DNA from: Chelativorans alearensis
GTDB taxonomy: Bacteria > Pseudomonadota > Alphaproteobacteria > Rhizobiales > Rhizobiaceae
Reading direction: 5' to 3'
Length of the DNA stretch: 64,000 nucleotides
Assembly: GCF_010993735.1 (NCBI RefSeq)
Contig: NZ_WQNI01000006.1
Location: forward strand, 62,001-126,000
Part shown: piece after piece, positions 5,125-47,099 of the stretch
Layout of the letters: each line of letters starts with the position of its first letter
Numbering within the stretch: the stretch's first letter is position 1
Position numbers and translations under genes: made by a program
Notes under the pieces: generated by a model
Databases searched by the model: none
The model's input: only the letters and a program-made list of their open reading frames with translations
Told to the model about the DNA's origin: nothing

Positions 5125-5236
5125 GTTCGGCTTCGCCGGGACCCCCCACCCTCAATCCCTCCCCTCAAGGGGGGAGGGAAGCCCCCCTCCCCCTTGTGGG
5201 GAGGGGTTAGGGGTGGGGGCCCCGGCGAAGCCGAAC
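5125..5236. repeat. Facing pair of CCCCTCCCC/GGGGAGGGG repeats, no gene inside
   Basis: Outer arms GTTCGGCTTCGCCGGG (5125-5140) and CCCGGCGAAGCCGAAC (5221-5236) are perfect inverted repeats. Inside them are two facing copies of the CACCCCTAACCCCTCCCC-type repeat (one reads CACCCTCAATCCCTCCCC). It lies between the sigma gene and DGPF protein 2. Same family as the ends of the DUF559 cassette at 45167-45633. Confidence 0.85.
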
Positions 5237-33282: not shown

Positions 33283-33288
33283 GACGCC

Positions 33289-33472
33289 TTTCCCTCCCCC
33301 TTGAGGGGAGGGTGGACAACCGCCGCGAGGCGGATGGACGGGTGGGGTCAGCGCGGCCGTGCTCTACGCCAATAGTGCAATAAGAAAATAGGCCGGCGCG
33401 CGTCGCGGCCTACCCCACCCACCTTCCCGGACTTTGTCCGGGAAGGCACCCTCCCCTCAAGGGGGAGGGAGG
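33289..33472. repeat. Facing pair of CCCTCCCCCTTGAGGGGAGGG repeats, no gene inside
   Basis: Left copy at about 33289-33315 (CCCTCCCCCTTGAGGGG) and right copy at about 33448-33472 (CCCCTCAAGGGGGAGGG) are inverted relative to each other, with about 130 bp between them that contain no gene I can support. This fills the gap between preA and the GST gene. Same family as the DUF559 cassette ends. Confidence 0.8.
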
Positions 33473-33481
33473 ACCGACCGG

Positions 33482-34153
33482 TCAGGCCGCCGCCCTATCC
33501 AGCCGCAGGAGCACGCCGCCCTTCTTGTCGAGAAAACGGCGCAGGCGGCCGGCGTAGTCGGGCGCCACGACCTCGCGCACGGAGGGACGCGCGGCCAGCG
33601 TCTTGCGCCACGCCTGCACCTTGGGCAGGCCGTCGAAGACACCGAGATCGGCGATCGTGTCGATGACATCGAAATAGCGGAAGGCGGGGGCGAAGACGGC
33701 GTCGACGACGGTGAAGGCCTCGCCTGCAAAATACGGACCGTCGCCGAGTTCGGCCTCGATGCGCGAGAACTTCTCCTTCAGCGCCGCAACGGCTGCGTCG
33801 AAAGCCGCCCGATCGCCCGTCGTCTCGATGGTCCAGATGTCGGAGAGGGCGGCGGAGCCGAACTCCATCCAGGCGCGGTGGCGGGCACGGGCGATGGCGT
33901 CTTCCGGGTGGAGCCGCGGGGCATACGTCTCGTCCAGGTACTCGACGATGGCCGCGCTCTCGAACAGCACCTCCTCACCCACCTTCAGAACCGGCACCTT
34001 GCCGCGTGGGGAGATTTTCAGGAACCAGTCGGGCTTGTTCTCGAGATCGATGTCGATGCGCTCGAAGGGGACGCTCTTTTCCTTGAGCACGATCGCCGCG
34101 CGCTGCACATAGGGGCACAGGTCGAAGGAGACGAGGGTGGGGTTTTGTGGCAT
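33482..34153 (-). CDS. Glutathione S-transferase
   Basis: A 223-residue cytosolic GST. Thioredoxin-fold N-terminus: LVSFDLCPYVQRAAIVLKEK (a CPYVQ active-site motif, as in Omega/Lambda-like and beta-type enzymes), PRGKVPVLKVGEEVLFESAA binding glutathione, then an all-helical domain with YFAGEAFTVVDAVFAPAF. It may conjugate or reduce electrophiles; the substrate is unknown. Divergent from a MarR regulator with two shared palindromes in the promoter region, so probably under its control. Confidence 0.92.
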   Translation of the reverse strand: MPQNPTLVSFDLCPYVQRAAIVLKEKSVPFERIDIDLENKPDWFLKISPRGKVPVLKVGEEVLFESAAIVEYLDETYAPRLHPEDAIARARHRAWMEFGSAALSDIWTIETTGDRAAFDAAVAALKEKFSRIEAELGDGPYFAGEAFTVVDAVFAPAFRYFDVIDTIADLGVFDGLPKVQAWRKTLAARPSVREVVAPDYAGRLRRFLDKKGGVLLRLDRAAA

Positions 34154-35805: not shown

Positions 35806-36870
35806 CTATGATTTGTGGGCGGCGAAGGAAAGGCCGTCCGCAAGCCCCACCGCGAGCTTAAGCGCGGCTCCGGTCGCCACCACCATCTGCGGCAGGAGCA
35901 TCCATTCCAGTGTCCAGGCGGCGCCCGAACGTTCGTTCTCGTGTACCAGCGCATGGTGCATGCCGGGCAGAAGCGTGGCGTTGAAGCGGGCGAGGGTGAC
36001 GAGGGCCTCGGCCTTCACCGGGTTCTGCTTGTGCGGCATGGCGGACGAGCCGCCGGCCTCGGCGAGCTTCACCTCGCCCATCTCGCTTTGCGCCATCAGC
36101 GCCACGTCCTGCCCCATCTTGCCGAGGCTTCCGGTGGTGAGCGACAGGAATGAGGCGAGGTCGGCGATGCCGTCGCGCTCCGAATGCCGGGCACGGGCGA
36201 CGAGATTGAGGCCGAGCGCCTTGGCCAGCCGCGCGGCGACGGGCGGGCCCTTGTCGCCGAGCTTGTCGAGCGTGCCGGCCGCGCCGCCGAAGGTGAGGAT
36301 GGCAGCGGATTTGGTGACGCTATCCAGGCGGGCGCGGTGGCGCATCAAAGGCTCGCGCCAGGCGCGGATTTTTCGCGCGGCGAGGACGGGAATGGCTGCC
36401 TGCATACGCGTGTGCGCCATGACGGGCGCAGCGCCGTCGCGCTTCTCCAGCGCGTCGAGCGCTTCAACCAGACGGTCGAGACGCGCTGCCAGCAGGCCCA
36501 TGGCCTCGGAGAGCCGAAGCGCAAGGCCGGTGTCGATCGCATCCTGGCTGGTGGCGCCGAAGTGGAGGTGAGGGGCGTATTCCGGCTGAAGCCGCTCGCG
36601 CAACTGGGCGATGAGGGCCGGCACCACCACGCCGTCGCTCGCCACGCCGGCCTTGAGCGCGGAAATATCCGGGCCGAAGCCGGCAAGGGCCTCCGCGATG
36701 GCGCGTGCGGCCCCGTCCGGGATGACGCCTTCCTGGGCCTCCGCCTCGGCAAGGGCGGCCTCGAAGCGCAGCATCGCCTCGATCTCGGCCCTGGCCGAGA
36801 AGAGCTGCGCCAGCTCCTCGTCGCCCAGAAGGCCTGCGAGGATGGGGTGGTCGAAGGCTGAGATGGTCAT
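35806..36870 (-). CDS. pcaB: 3-carboxy-cis,cis-muconate cycloisomerase
   Basis: A 354-residue member of the fumarase/aspartase superfamily that lactonises carboxymuconate in the protocatechuate branch of the beta-ketoadipate pathway. The superfamily signature is GGSSAMPHKQNPVKAEALV near residue 270; FGATSQDAIDTGLALRL contains the substrate loop. It is shorter than many PcaB proteins (about 450), as usual for rhizobial forms. Last gene of pobA-pcaC-pcaH-pcaG-pcaB; 107 bases separate it from pcaG. Confidence 0.93.
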   Translation of the reverse strand: MTISAFDHPILAGLLGDEELAQLFSARAEIEAMLRFEAALAEAEAQEGVIPDGAARAIAEALAGFGPDISALKAGVASDGVVVPALIAQLRERLQPEYAPHLHFGATSQDAIDTGLALRLSEAMGLLAARLDRLVEALDALEKRDGAAPVMAHTRMQAAIPVLAARKIRAWREPLMRHRARLDSVTKSAAILTFGGAAGTLDKLGDKGPPVAARLAKALGLNLVARARHSERDGIADLASFLSLTTGSLGKMGQDVALMAQSEMGEVKLAEAGGSSAMPHKQNPVKAEALVTLARFNATLLPGMHHALVHENERSGAAWTLEWMLLPQMVVATGAALKLAVGLADGLSFAAHKS

Positions 36871-36977
36871 TGCGTTTGCCCTACCCTGTCGCGCCCTCTG
36901 CCCCCTCTCTTGCGACTTCTAACACTTAGCCTTCGGCTAAGCCCAAGAATTTGCAAGAGAGGGGGCCTCTACGGCCC

Positions 36978-37592
36978 TCACACATCGAAAAACACCGTCT
37001 CCTTCTCGCCCTGAAGGTGGATGTCGAAAGTGTAGGTGTCGCCGTCCCGTGGGGCAACCAGCGTGGGGACACGGCTCTGGTGCTCAAGCCGCGTCAAAAC
37101 CGGGTCTTCCGCGTTCGCCTTCTCCTCGTCGCCGAAATACATGCGCGTCTGCAGGCCCAGATTGATGCCGCGGGCGACGATCCAGAGCGAGATGTGGGGC
37201 GCCTGCGGGCGGCCGTCGGGGAAGGGGACGCGGCCGGGCTTGATGGTCTCGAAGGTGAAGACGCCGGTCTCGCTATCGGAAGCCTGCCGCCCCCAGCCGG
37301 TGAAGTTGGGGTCGGCTTTCCCGCGCGGCTCCGAGGGCGAGTTGTAGAGCCCGTCGGCATCGGCCTGCCAGATCTCGATCAGCGCATCCTTGATGACGGA
37401 GCCGGTGCCGTCGAAGACGCGCATCTTCACCGTGATGCGCTCGCCCTTGGTCTTGTCGTCGACCATGCGGGTGCCGAGGTCTTCCGGATAGACGCCGGAA
37501 ATCTCGCAGATGTTCGGCGTGAGCCCGATATGGACGTATGGCCCTGCCGTCTGGGAGGGGGTTTCCTTCAGTCTTGTCAGCGACTGGGCCAT
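36978..37592 (-). CDS. pcaG: Protocatechuate 3,4-dioxygenase, alpha subunit
   Basis: A 204-residue intradiol dioxygenase alpha chain: KETPSQTAGPYVHIGLTP at the N-terminus, IEIWQADADGLYN, and PHISLWIVARGIN. The alpha chain shapes the active site but lacks the iron ligands. Starts two bases after the pcaH stop, so the pair is coupled. It cleaves protocatechuate to 3-carboxy-cis,cis-muconate. Confidence 0.95.
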   Translation of the reverse strand: MAQSLTRLKETPSQTAGPYVHIGLTPNICEISGVYPEDLGTRMVDDKTKGERITVKMRVFDGTGSVIKDALIEIWQADADGLYNSPSEPRGKADPNFTGWGRQASDSETGVFTFETIKPGRVPFPDGRPQAPHISLWIVARGINLGLQTRMYFGDEEKANAEDPVLTRLEHQSRVPTLVAPRDGDTYTFDIHLQGEKETVFFDV

Positions 37593-43403: not shown

Positions 43404-44323
43404 GGCCGCGCCCCCATGCGCGCCATGACGAGGCGCTGGGCAAGGCCGACGAGGGCGACGAGCACTGCCGCAAGGGCCGCTGCCATGAAGAGGGCGGACC
43501 AGATCTGGATCGTCTGGCCGTAATAGGAGCCGGCCAGCAGCCGGGCGCCCAGGCCGGCCACCGCGCCCGTCGGCAATTCGCCGACGATGGCGCCGACGAG
43601 GCTGATGGCGACGGCCACCTTCATGGACGTGAAGAGGAAGGGCAGGGCGGACGGCCAGCGCAGCCTGAAGAAGGTCTGCGTGCGGTTGGCATTATAGGTG
43701 CGCATCAGGTCGAACTGGATCGCTTCGGGACTGCGGAAGCCTTTCACCATGCCGACGACCACCGGGAAGAAGGAGAGATAGGTGGAGATCAGCGCCTTGG
43801 GCAGAAGGCCCGAGAGGCCGATGGCATTGAGGACGACGATGATCATCGGCGCTATCGCCAGGATGGGGATCGTCTGGCTGGCGATCACCCACGGCATGAC
43901 CGACTTGTCCATCGCCCGGTTGTGGACGATGCCGACGGCGAGAATAACGCCCAGCGTGGTGCCGATGGCGAAGCCGAGGAGCGTCGAGGAAAGGGTGATC
44001 CAGGCGTGGTTCAAAAGGCTGCGGTTGGAGGTGGGGCGGGTCTCGACGGTGGTCTTCCACATCTCGGCCACCACCTGATGCGGTGCCGGCAGCACGGGGC
44101 GCTCCTGGGCCATGGTGTCGCGCACGAGGTCGGCGGCGGTCCATTCGGTGCCGGCGCGCTGATAGAGGCCGATCTGCCAGGGGGCGTTGAGATAGACCGT
44201 GAAGCCGTACCAGATGAGGACGATGGCGGCGACGACGATGGCGATGGGCAGCGCCTTGCCGTCGGTGAGGCGGCGGAGGGTGGCGGGGCTTTCCGTGGGG
44301 GTGGAGGCGGCGGAGGCGGTCAT
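43400..44323 (-). CDS. ABC transporter permease of the pyrimidine operon (1)
   Basis: A 307-residue permease with an N-terminal helix (LPIAIVVAAIVLIWYGFTVY) and the SsuC/ThiX-type core: TLGVILAVGIVHNRAMDKSV, LAIAPMIIVVLNAIGLSG and the EAA-like YNANRTQTFFRLRWPSALPF. It lies downstream of the ATPase and overlaps the next permease by four bases. Confidence 0.9.
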   Translation of the reverse strand: MTASAASTPTESPATLRRLTDGKALPIAIVVAAIVLIWYGFTVYLNAPWQIGLYQRAGTEWTAADLVRDTMAQERPVLPAPHQVVAEMWKTTVETRPTSNRSLLNHAWITLSSTLLGFAIGTTLGVILAVGIVHNRAMDKSVMPWVIASQTIPILAIAPMIIVVLNAIGLSGLLPKALISTYLSFFPVVVGMVKGFRSPEAIQFDLMRTYNANRTQTFFRLRWPSALPFLFTSMKVAVAISLVGAIVGELPTGAVAGLGARLLAGSYYGQTIQIWSALFMAAALAAVLVALVGLAQRLVMARMGARP

Positions 44324-44380
44324 GGGGTTGGCCTCCGAAGCCGGTGCCCCTTCGCGCCAACGTGGGTGTTCTGCAGCAAA

Positions 44381-45223
44381 TCACTCATCGCCATGCCCCG
44401 CCCTCAAGCCCTCGCGCACACGATGCGCGATCGCCAGGAACTCCGGCGTCTCGCGGATATCCAGCGGCCGCTCCTTCGGCAGCGTCGATTCGATCACGTC
44501 CGTCACGCGTCCCGGGCGCGGCGACATCACCACAATGCGCGTCGACAGATAGACGGCTTCCGGAATGGAGTGCGTGACGAAGCAGATGGTCTTGTTGGTG
44601 CGCGCCCATAGCTCCAGCAACTGCTCGTTCAGGTGGTCGCGCACGATCTCGTCCAGGGCGCCGAACGGTTCATCCATCAAAAGCAGATCGGCGTCGAAGG
44701 CGAGCGCGCGGGCGATCGAGGCGCGCTGCTGCATGCCGCCGGAAAGCTGCCAGGGGAACTTGCGCTCGAAACCGGTAAGGTTGACGAGGTCGAGCGTGCG
44801 CGCCACGCGCTCCTGCCTCTCCCGGCTGGAATAGCCCATGATCTCCAGCGGCAGGGCGACGTTCTTTTCGATCGTGCGCCAGGGGAAGAGGCCGGCGGCC
44901 TGGAAGACGTAGCCATAGGCGCGGGCCCGGCGGGCGGCCTCCGGCGTAAGCCCGTTGACACGGATGTCGCCCGCCGTCGGCTGCTCCAGGTCGGCGATGA
45001 CGCGCAGGAACGTGGTCTTGCCGCAGCCCGACGGGCCGATGAAGGAGACGAACTCACCTCGGCCGACCGAAAGATCGACATTGCTGAGCGCCTGGACCGG
45101 GCCGTCGGCGGTGTCGAAGGTGAGGCTCAGGCCCCGCGCCTCGACTACGGAAGGGGCCGCGATAGATTCCCCTCCCCCTTGAGGGGAGGGGTTAGGGGTG
45201 GGGGTAGTGGCCACGACGTTCAA
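44381..45223 (-). CDS. ABC transporter ATPase of the pyrimidine operon, with repeat-encoded N-terminus
   Basis: A 280-residue SsuB/TauB-type ATPase. Walker A FIGPSGCGKTTFLRVIADL near residue 65, signature QLSGGMQQRASIARALA, Walker B LLLMDEPFGALDEI. Residues 6-19 (TTPTPNPSPQGGGE) are encoded by the left 40-bp end of the DUF559 cassette, and the start codon lies inside the cassette. The real domain begins at about residue 27 with VEARGLSLTFDT. The start overlaps the DUF559 stop (ATGA). Confidence 0.9.
   Translation of the reverse strand: MNVVATTPTPNPSPQGGGESIAAPSVVEARGLSLTFDTADGPVQALSNVDLSVGRGEFVSFIGPSGCGKTTFLRVIADLEQPTAGDIRVNGLTPEAARRARAYGYVFQAAGLFPWRTIEKNVALPLEIMGYSSRERQERVARTLDLVNLTGFERKFPWQLSGGMQQRASIARALAFDADLLLMDEPFGALDEIVRDHLNEQLLELWARTNKTICFVTHSIPEAVYLSTRIVVMSPRPGRVTDVIESTLPKERPLDIRETPEFLAIAHRVREGLRAGHGDE
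45167..45206 (+). repeat. DUF559 cassette, left 40-bp end
   Basis: Perfect reverse complement of 45594-45633. Translated within the ABC ATPase as TTPTPNPSPQGGGE. Confidence 0.9.
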
Positions 45224-45585
45224 CGCATCACCCCCAACTCCCGAAGTATCTCCTCAATGCAGCCGTCCAAAGTTTCATCCAACTCTCCCGTTCGGAAGCG
45301 CAAAACCCTATAGCCCGCTCGATGCAGCCATCGATCTCTGATCGCGTCCGATGCCATCCTTTCTGGCTCGACATGAAACTGACCGTCTACTTCAATCACG
45401 AGCTTTGCGGAATGAATGGCAAAGTCGGCCACGTATGGTCCGATCGGAACTTGGCGCCTGACATGGGCGCCATAGAGTTTCCTGAATTCTTTCAGTTCGT
45501 GCCAAAGACGTTTCTCTCCTTCCGTCATATTTCGGCGGTGCCGGCGCGCTCGCCCAATGGCGTTTTTTCCAACAACGGATGGCAT
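45220..45585 (-). CDS. DUF559 (Vsr-like endonuclease fold) protein
   Basis: A 121-residue protein of the DUF559 family, related to very-short-patch-repair endonucleases of the PD-(D/E)xK fold. Family features are MTEGEKRLWHELKEFRKLYG, VRRQVPIGPYVADFAIHS (the Asp of the core) and KLVIEVDGQFHVEP (ExDG), then YRVLRFRTGEL. These could be nuclease active-site residues, but function is not established. An ATG at 45651 would extend it through the repeat; the ATG at 45585 fits inside the cassette. It stands between dihydropyrimidinase and the ATPase, to which it is coupled by ATGA. Confidence 0.85.
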   Translation of the reverse strand: MPSVVGKNAIGRARRHRRNMTEGEKRLWHELKEFRKLYGAHVRRQVPIGPYVADFAIHSAKLVIEVDGQFHVEPERMASDAIRDRWLHRAGYRVLRFRTGELDETLDGCIEEILRELGVMR

Positions 45586-45593
45586 CGCGGCTG

Positions 45594-45633
45594 TACCCCC
45601 ACCCCTAACCCCTCCCCTCAAGGGGGAGGGGAA
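45594..45633 (-). repeat. DUF559 cassette, right 40-bp end
   Basis: Perfect reverse complement of 45167-45206. Confidence 0.9.
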
Positions 45634-45647
45634 CGCGTTTGCGCTCA

Positions 45648-47099
45648 TCATACCCCGCTCGCCGGGATGCCGGCCCGCTCGACCTTGCGCGGTGCAGTCA
45701 CCTCTTTCCACTTGGACAGCGCCCGGTGGACGGGAGCATTCGCCTCGCGTGCCACGAACTCGCCATGGCCGGGCTTCGGTTTGACCACCCCGTCCTCGAC
45801 GACGATCTCGCCGCGCGACAGCACCGTCCTCGGCAGGCCCTTGACATGCAGGCCCTCGAAGACGTTGTAGTCGATCGCCGACTGTTGGTTCTGCGCGGAG
45901 ATGGTCTTTTCCGCATTCGGATCCCACACCACGATATCGGCGTCAGCCCCTTCGACGATGGCACCCTTCTTCGGGTACATGTTGAGGATCTTGGCGCTGT
46001 TGGTCGAGGTGACGGCGACGAACTCGTTCATGGTCAGCCGGCCGGTGTTGACGCCATAGGTCCACAGAACCGGCATGCGGTCCTCAAGGCCGCCCGTGCC
46101 GTTGGGGATCTTGGTGAAGTCGCCTACGCCGAAGCGCTTCTGCTCGGTGGTGAAGGCGCAGTGGTCGGTGGCCACCACCTGGAGCGAACCCGCCTGAAGG
46201 CCGGCCCAGAGCGAATCCTGGTGCAGCTTGTTGCGGAAGGGGGGCGACATGACGCGGCGGGCGGCGTGGTCCCAGTCGGGGTTCGAATATTCGCTCTCGT
46301 CCAGCACCAGATGCTGGATCAGCGGCTCGCCATAGACGCGCATGCCCTTCTGGCGGGCGCGGCGGATGGCTTCATGCGCCTGCTCGCAGGAGGTGTGCAC
46401 CACATAGAGCGGGCTGCCGGCCATATCGGCGATCATGATGGCGCGGTTGGTGGCCTCGCCCTCCACCTCCGGCGGGCGCGAATAGGCGTGCGCCTCTGGG
46501 CCGTCGTTGCCCTCGGCCATCAGCTTGGCCTGGAGCCCTGCCACCACGTCGCCATTCTCGGCATGGACGAGGGGAAGGGCGCCAAGCTCGGCGCAGCGCT
46601 GGAAGGACGCATACATCTCGTCGTCGTCCACCATCAGCGCGCCCTTATAGGCCATGAAGTGCTTGAAGGAGGTGATGCCGCGGTCGACCACCTCGGCCAT
46701 CTCGTTGAAGACCTGTTCGCTCCACCAGGTGATCGCCATGTGGAAGGAATAGTCGCACGTTGCCTTGGTGGACTTGTTGTCCCACATCTGGATCGCCTCC
46801 AGCAGCGACTGGCCGGGCGAGGGGAGGCAGAAATCCACCACCATGGTCGTGCCGCCGGAGACGGCAGCGCGCGTGCCACTCTCGAAATCGTCCGAGGAGT
46901 AGGTGCCCATGAAGGGCATCTCCAGATGCGTGTGCGGGTCGATGCCGCCCGGCATGACATAGCAGCCGGTGGCGTCGATCTCGTGATCGGCGTGGAGGTC
47001 GGGGCCGATGCCGACGATCTTGTCGTGCTTGATCAGGACGTCCGCCTTCCACGTGCGGTCGGCGGTGACGATGGTGCCGTTCTTGATGACTTTGGACAT
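45648..47099 (-). CDS. hydA: Dihydropyrimidinase
   Basis: A 483-residue amidohydrolase opening dihydrouracil to N-carbamoyl-beta-alanine. Zinc ligands are GGIDPHTHLEMPF (residues 52-64); the carboxylated lysine lies in GITSFKHFMAYKG. Further motifs are LYVVHTSCEQA and ATDHCAFTTEQKRFG. It is the hydantoinase/dihydropyrimidinase type, full length. Second enzyme of the reductive pathway, downstream of the ureidopropionase gene with a repeat pair in between. Confidence 0.95.
   Translation of the reverse strand: MSKVIKNGTIVTADRTWKADVLIKHDKIVGIGPDLHADHEIDATGCYVMPGGIDPHTHLEMPFMGTYSSDDFESGTRAAVSGGTTMVVDFCLPSPGQSLLEAIQMWDNKSTKATCDYSFHMAITWWSEQVFNEMAEVVDRGITSFKHFMAYKGALMVDDDEMYASFQRCAELGALPLVHAENGDVVAGLQAKLMAEGNDGPEAHAYSRPPEVEGEATNRAIMIADMAGSPLYVVHTSCEQAHEAIRRARQKGMRVYGEPLIQHLVLDESEYSNPDWDHAARRVMSPPFRNKLHQDSLWAGLQAGSLQVVATDHCAFTTEQKRFGVGDFTKIPNGTGGLEDRMPVLWTYGVNTGRLTMNEFVAVTSTNSAKILNMYPKKGAIVEGADADIVVWDPNAEKTISAQNQQSAIDYNVFEGLHVKGLPRTVLSRGEIVVEDGVVKPKPGHGEFVAREANAPVHRALSKWKEVTAPRKVERAGIPASGV

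Follow-up and report, generated by a model that had tools for sequence, protein, structure and literature searches.

In the window, by which is meant the whole 64,000-nucleotide stretch of DNA analysed here, a DUF559 gene lies between the genes of a hydantoinase and of an ABC transporter ATP-binding protein, enclosed by two inverted copies of a short repeat. The features of this locus and the repeat elements found elsewhere in the window are the following:

5157-5205, no strand: close pair of repeat cores with 1-2 mismatches
33283-33482, no strand: related repeat pair (spacing 157) that encloses no DUF559 gene
36870-36980, no strand: class B repeat element, of the class associated with the second DUF559 gene of the genome; the orthologous gap of G158 lacks it
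44381-45223, minus strand: ABC transporter ATP-binding gene with a TTG start at 45223-45221
45167-45206, minus strand: inverted repeat copy downstream of the DUF559 gene, with its minus-strand head at 45204-45195 and its hairpin at 45169-45191
45585-45220, minus strand: DUF559 (PF04480) gene, 366 bp including the stop, 121 aa, Vsr/PD-(D/E)XK fold
45594-45633, plus strand: repeat copy upstream of the DUF559 gene, with the gene-facing head CCCCCACCCC (45596-45605) followed by a 9-bp hairpin (45609-45631)
45648-47099, minus strand: dihydropyrimidinase (hydantoinase) gene, upstream of DUF559, TIGR02033 above cut-off

The preliminary description had reported exact inverted arms of 40 bases, a DUF559 gene filling 366 of the 387 bp between them, and a lower GC content than that of the neighbours, and all three statements hold. 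The arms at 45167-45206 and 45594-45633 are complementary at 40/40 positions across a spacer of 387 nt, the reading frame between them codes for the 121 residues, and the gene has a GC content of 54.0% (over 45223-45585) versus 64.8% for the hydantoinase and 67.3% for the ABC ATPase; among 363-bp stretches sampled from the window, 0.94% are as low. Inverted 20-mer pairs no more than 700 bp apart occur at two places only in the window (around 33291-33451 and at the DUF559 site), and at none in 20 Markov-1 random windows of the same dinucleotide make-up. The TTG start of the ABC gene overlaps the DUF559 stop (45222-45220) and is placed between the DUF559 gene and the downstream repeat, which is in frame within the predicted N-terminus of the ABC ATPase (TPTPNPSPQGGGE). 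On the other side, in the region 45633-45651, an ATG near 45650, in frame with DUF559 via the upstream repeat, overlaps the hydantoinase stop; the two genes may therefore be translationally coupled, with the upstream repeat translated in a longer form of the protein.

The PF04480 match of the protein has an E-value of 9.7e-30 and 103.1 bits, the cut-off being 20.6. DUF559 is the only Pfam domain above cut-off, accompanied by three weak others, and no transposase domain (HUH/Y1) was found in this search. The AlphaFold model has a pLDDT of 87.5, and its matches among PDB structures are 3hrl, the structure of NGO0050, together with 3r3p and 1cw0/1vsr, the best being nucleases of the Vsr type. Residues D54 and E65 of the protein are invariant. 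Vsr itself nicks the T:G mismatch in the target of a methylase. Relative to the copy in the related genome G152, the gene differs at 15.9% of nucleotides and the hydantoinase at 4.1%, a comparison of one species pair and one neighbour, and the arms are 40/40 identical in both loci despite the divergence of the gene. With a dN/dS of 0.083/0.605 versus the G152 copy, the DUF559 gene of the window is under purifying selection.

The 21-nt core of the repeat has 95 matches (no more than 3 mismatches) in the 5.70-Mb genome, and the reversed core pattern has none in that genome. Greedy pairing arranges these matches in 34 +/- pairs, most of them 42-48 nt apart, 9 -/+ pairs and 9 single copies. One of the -/+ pairs is the DUF559 site, and the eight others lie 70-213 apart, one of these being perhaps a pairing artefact. 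Most pairs in the genome have their heads pointing outward, opposite to the arrangement at the DUF559 gene, and such close pairs resemble REPINs or BIMEs. As single-stranded DNA, a repeat copy is predicted to fold into a 9-bp hairpin with an unpaired C-rich head. Many of the pairs (L004-L032) form the inner part of a larger palindromic mosaic, the outer ends of which are of the CATATGG / CCATATG type. The same genome has a second DUF559 gene, which is also located between inverted repeat copies, of a different class with 13 matches genome-wide. Repeat elements of other classes are polymorphic among close relatives, and gaps near the window have gained or lost elements. At the gap orthologous to 33283-33482, G152 carries another pair, and the short sequences of G158 and G153 include none of this kind; a class C pair present in G152 at the gap 44323-44377 is absent from the window. 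Comparison with Rfam gave no match near any family threshold, and PADLOC returned weak partial matches only (best E 1.5e-4, 17.7 bits), which is no evidence for a role in defence.

The preliminary description had also asked whether the flanks of DUF559 genes in rhizobial genomes carry this repeat more often than those of random genes. To score flanking repeats without any motif, each gene was given the score of the best inverted repeat that its 300-bp flanks form with each other, and a score of at least 40 was taken as positive; in a broad form of the test, direct repeats and one-sided repeat pairs were also counted. PF04480 is present in 96 of the 151 genomes of the family, and the 112 loci tested are the two of the window's own genome and 110 of the best-scoring among the matches listed. 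The outcome is far above controls, with 48/112 DUF559 loci positive versus 2/357 ORFs of the same regions. A separate run gave 47/112 versus 2/384 control ORFs (Fisher p 4e-32), and of these two positive controls, the one at L149 1278-1686 coincides with another DUF559 match. ParE toxin genes of the same genome sample (the best match from 30 of 122 genomes) were negative in 30 of 30 cases by the inverted-repeat and the broad test alike. By the broad test, the counts are 96/112 DUF559 loci versus 15/357 control ORFs, which leaves 16/112 loci with no repeat signature. Counting each shared neighbourhood once gives 36 contexts, 25 of them with at least one positive locus; of the 24 singletons, 15 are positive. 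A null obtained by pairing the flanks of different loci was dropped, as its 99% level for inverted repeats lay above the scores of all 32 loci (0/32 higher); this null is uninformative because relatives share repeat classes, and the control ORFs and ParE genes were used instead.

The association extends to other sets of genomes. In the genus, where the set overlaps that of the family (e.g., L179 and L087), an inverted repeat flanks 9/19 DUF559 loci, while loci from a phylum-wide search were positive in 11/27 cases and two further batches of its matches, of mixed kinship, in 13/20 and 14/20. From a scan of named genomes, the best 80 of 560 loci were taken, of which 2 were dropped for short flanks and 78 were usable; this set may overlap that of the family, since L322 and L327 look like family loci. 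Positive loci amount to 33/54 in Pseudomonadota, 8/19 in other phyla and 1/5 among unnamed records, versus 0/60 control ORFs, and the broad test gives 49/54, 12/19 and 1/5, respectively, versus 4/60. The records from other phyla are of Chloroflexi type, Gastranaerophilales/Melainabacteria, Desulfobacterales and Planctomycetota. Some loci of the named set are short contigs of metagenome bins, and a phylum label may therefore be wrong. The four Clostridia loci of the named set were all negative.

It is clear that short repeats with a C-rich head and a terminal hairpin accompany DUF559 genes, on one or both sides. In most arms, the order outward from the gene is head, short linker or inner hairpin, and terminal hairpin, for example CCCTCACCC-AA-CCCTCTCCC-loop-GGGAGAGGG, and the head is C-rich across the arms examined. 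When the head was sought on either side of the hairpin, it faced the gene in 79 arms and away from it in 21, with 9 tied. Orientation from the hairpin alone was discarded as invalid, because the hairpin is its own reverse complement. Of 109 distinct arms, 83 have a head that mirrors the 5' stem with at most one letter differing over 7-9, compared with 43 for a direct copy, and 41 of the 54 single differences between the head and the mirror are T to A. For asymmetric stems, the mirror beats the direct copy by 29 to 8 with 13 ties (p 0.0008), which makes it a modest rule; the ends of the named loci were approximated in the mirror and orientation counts. Given that the head mirrors the 5' stem, the head and the 3' strand of the hairpin are parallel complements, so that a folded-back, triplex-like shape is possible, and it is possible that the protein recognises the repeat by this shape.

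Different clades of DUF559 go with different classes of repeat. On the protein tree, which rests on 106 columns, the repeat class requires 17 changes versus a mean of 67.1 for shuffled labels, and 0/200 shuffles were as low. All 29 class C rows fall on one side of a single branch (support 100/97); since 21 of these 29 loci share one neighbourhood, the match of class and tree is partly co-inheritance. The 21 class B loci, in contrast, are spread over 19 neighbourhoods, or over 15 when a single neighbour in common is taken as enough. Class motifs were found at 105/112 DUF559 loci versus 16/341 controls, values that are inflated because the motifs were written after the arms had been seen.

Genomes with the cognate gene have more of the repeats, and this genome-wide copy number is a partly independent test of the pairing. 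The class C pattern occurs in 29/29 genomes with a C-type gene (median 27, maximum 268), versus 9/55 genomes without DUF559 (median 0) and 39/67 with other DUF559 genes (median 1), the last group including genomes whose DUF559 matches were not among the matches listed. After removal of two copies per C genome, to allow for those beside the gene, the difference has a p of 7e-13 versus genomes without DUF559 and 9e-6 versus those with other DUF559 genes, values that ignore the relatedness of the genomes. The reversed class C pattern had 0 matches in the genomes scanned. Class C repeats also persist without a detected C gene, as in the window's own genome (15 matches). The effect is weaker for class B, found in 14/23 genomes with its gene (a list that includes L095 and L121, added by tree position), 1/55 without DUF559 and 9/73 with other DUF559 genes (p 7e-5 and 0.012, respectively, again ignoring relatedness). 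The tested classes are dispersed through their host genomes, and that of the window mostly as close inverted pairs.

Among the 16 genomes of the genus, the core of the window's repeat has 89 and 123 matches in the two that carry the cognate gene. G155, which is without it, has 40, and the other 13 have 0-5. One of these 13 is G158, with 2 matches, where the cognate gene is internally deleted. No other DUF559 of the genus that was compared exceeds 43% identity to that of the window. The head of the window type was present in 29/30 sampled copies of the own genome, 5/5 of G152 and 3/14 of G155, where the remaining 11/14 have other heads. G155 also has a truncated DUF559 of another clade (L383), which is 68% identical to L188 over 44 aa and has a related repeat upstream.

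The junction between the hydantoinase and ABC genes was compared at 11 of the 23 hydantoinase loci retrieved, among which L159 and L160-L163 do not count as simple empty sites. G152 is arranged as in the window, G158 has kept both repeats around its internally deleted gene, and G155, G087 and G153 have the same junction with neither gene nor repeats. The preliminary description had regarded the gene as interrupting an operon, and this is upheld by these three relatives and by the position of the hydantoinase and ABC genes on the same strand. Its proposal to align empty sites succeeded in part: such sites were found, and they are too diverged to define exact ends, with no clear target duplication, and no clean insertion with a duplicated target, seen among the gaps compared. 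The ABC start region reads TTGAACGTC in the window, compared with ATGAACGCC and GTGAACGCC at empty sites.

These results can be weighed for what the gene and its repeats might be to each other. For a classical IS-like element, the 467-bp repeat-gene-repeat unit would move whole with the repeats as its ends, and the dispersed pairs would be deleted, MITE-like derivatives. The three junctions lacking gene and repeats, the deleted gene of G158 and the eight additional -/+ pairs of the own genome, including the possible artefact, fit such an element. The ABC start codon lies between the gene and the downstream repeat, however, and the repeats are therefore not simply the ends of one insert. Moreover, of 43 paralogue pairs from ten genomes, 41 are 40-60% identical and two are closer (0.96 and 0.80), part of the DUF559 loci are orthologous positions, most pairs of the own genome are oriented opposite to the pair at the gene, and class motifs are found on one side only at 64 of the 112 family loci. 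An IS-like element is improbable on these grounds, and the idea in the preliminary description of a compact unit that copies itself whole is not supported, given the start codon inside it, the mostly diverged paralogues and the partly orthologous positions.

A homing-type nuclease would cut a site made of two repeats and be copied into it by recombination, leaving the flanking arms as the split target. This is unlikely, since there are 95 core matches for one cognate gene and homing alone does not multiply its target sites, and none of the genus junctions examined has both arms without any gene remnant. The homing endonuclease I-Bth0305I has a Vsr-like catalytic domain; at DUF559, in contrast, no intron is seen, the protein is a single domain of 121 aa and the partner repeats are multicopy hairpins. 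A role in repair or control is suggested by the Vsr fold, in which case a Vsr-like repair or structure-specific nuclease would remove or process the cruciforms of repeats that are spread otherwise, and be retained where repeats are common. The available text of a study of Caulobacter VsrA, a DUF559 protein, describes it as required for the SOS response when the cytosine methylase is missing and argues that it is a mismatch-repair nuclease, with no repeat association mentioned in that text (PMC12907096). T:G mismatch repair is the known or proposed role of the Vsr/DUF559 nucleases, including NGO0050 and VsrA, which the window protein resembles at the level of the fold, and a repeat role of DUF559 would have to be squared with that argued for VsrA. 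Nonetheless, repair leaves unexplained why the repeats are right beside the gene and why they match the protein tree class by class, and we consider it quite unlikely.

From the analysis as a whole, DUF559 probably provides the nuclease for a repeat system that resembles RAYT/REP in its working and has an unrelated enzyme; the nuclease would act on its cognate hairpins and thereby sustain them. The RAYT-like relation put forward in the preliminary description stands with regard to the association (flank enrichment, a class that tracks the protein tree and an abundance that is higher with the cognate gene), while recognition, cutting and copying or movement of the repeats by DUF559 are what we infer from it. 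In this proposal, the Vsr-fold nuclease would recognise the extruded or single-stranded head-plus-hairpin and cut beside it, and the cut would initiate copying, of single repeats or of pairs, to further intergenic sites, either via a strand-transfer intermediate or via repair of the cut. The DUF559 gene itself would mostly stay put and be inherited, its flanking copies serving as its own substrate or as a control element.

RAYTs, relatives of the IS200/IS605 transposases, are tyrosine enzymes, and REPs carry tags of the GT(A/G)G or CGTC type. DUF559, in contrast, is a Vsr-fold nuclease with no HUH/Y1 tyrosine transposase domain, its repeats have a C-rich head (CCCCCACCCC in the window) in mirror relation to the hairpin and no GTAG/CGTC tag, and two-sided flanking is common and not universal. 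The DUF559-repeat system works like RAYT/REP and is not a member of it, given that enzyme and tag differ. According to the available text of PMC2817692, the RAYT gene is flanked by two inverted palindromic repeats and evolves faster than its neighbours, its presence correlates with the abundance of its repeats, and composite arrays of alternating repeats occur. All four traits described in that text (flanking repeats, fast gene, abundance correlation and composite arrays) have DUF559 counterparts, that of the fast gene being seen in one species pair only.

In the open-licence literature searched, no account was found that ties DUF559 to palindromic repeats, which may be in print elsewhere, nor one of what spreads such dispersed hairpins. 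Hairpins of the DUF559-associated type are widespread in the genomes sampled, with one class alone in 77/151 family genomes, and the association suggests that enzyme and repeats form a so far unrecognised partnership, by which tiny repeats are spread across the genomes of bacteria. If DUF559 spreads the hairpins, a superfamily of repeats gains an enzyme, a large family of unknown function gains a job, and the question of how non-coding repeats persist in bacteria would have a second answer, unrelated to the first. Chances seem even for the wider reading that the nucleases of the DUF559 family form a second class of repeat-spreading enzymes, which evolved independently and is present in several phyla, each clade with its own head-hairpin repeat recognised by a folded (triplex-like) DNA shape, and that they are the source of the CCCTC-head / CTCCC-GGGAG intergenic hairpins dispersed in Pseudomonadota.

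The pyrimidine-degradation operon of the window harbours DUF559 genes with different repeat classes at several of its gaps in relatives (L047, L051, L070, L083, L089, L094, L103, L105, and L117). The gene is found before the hydantoinase in L089, L094, L103, and L105, and after the ABC gene in L083, L117, and L070.
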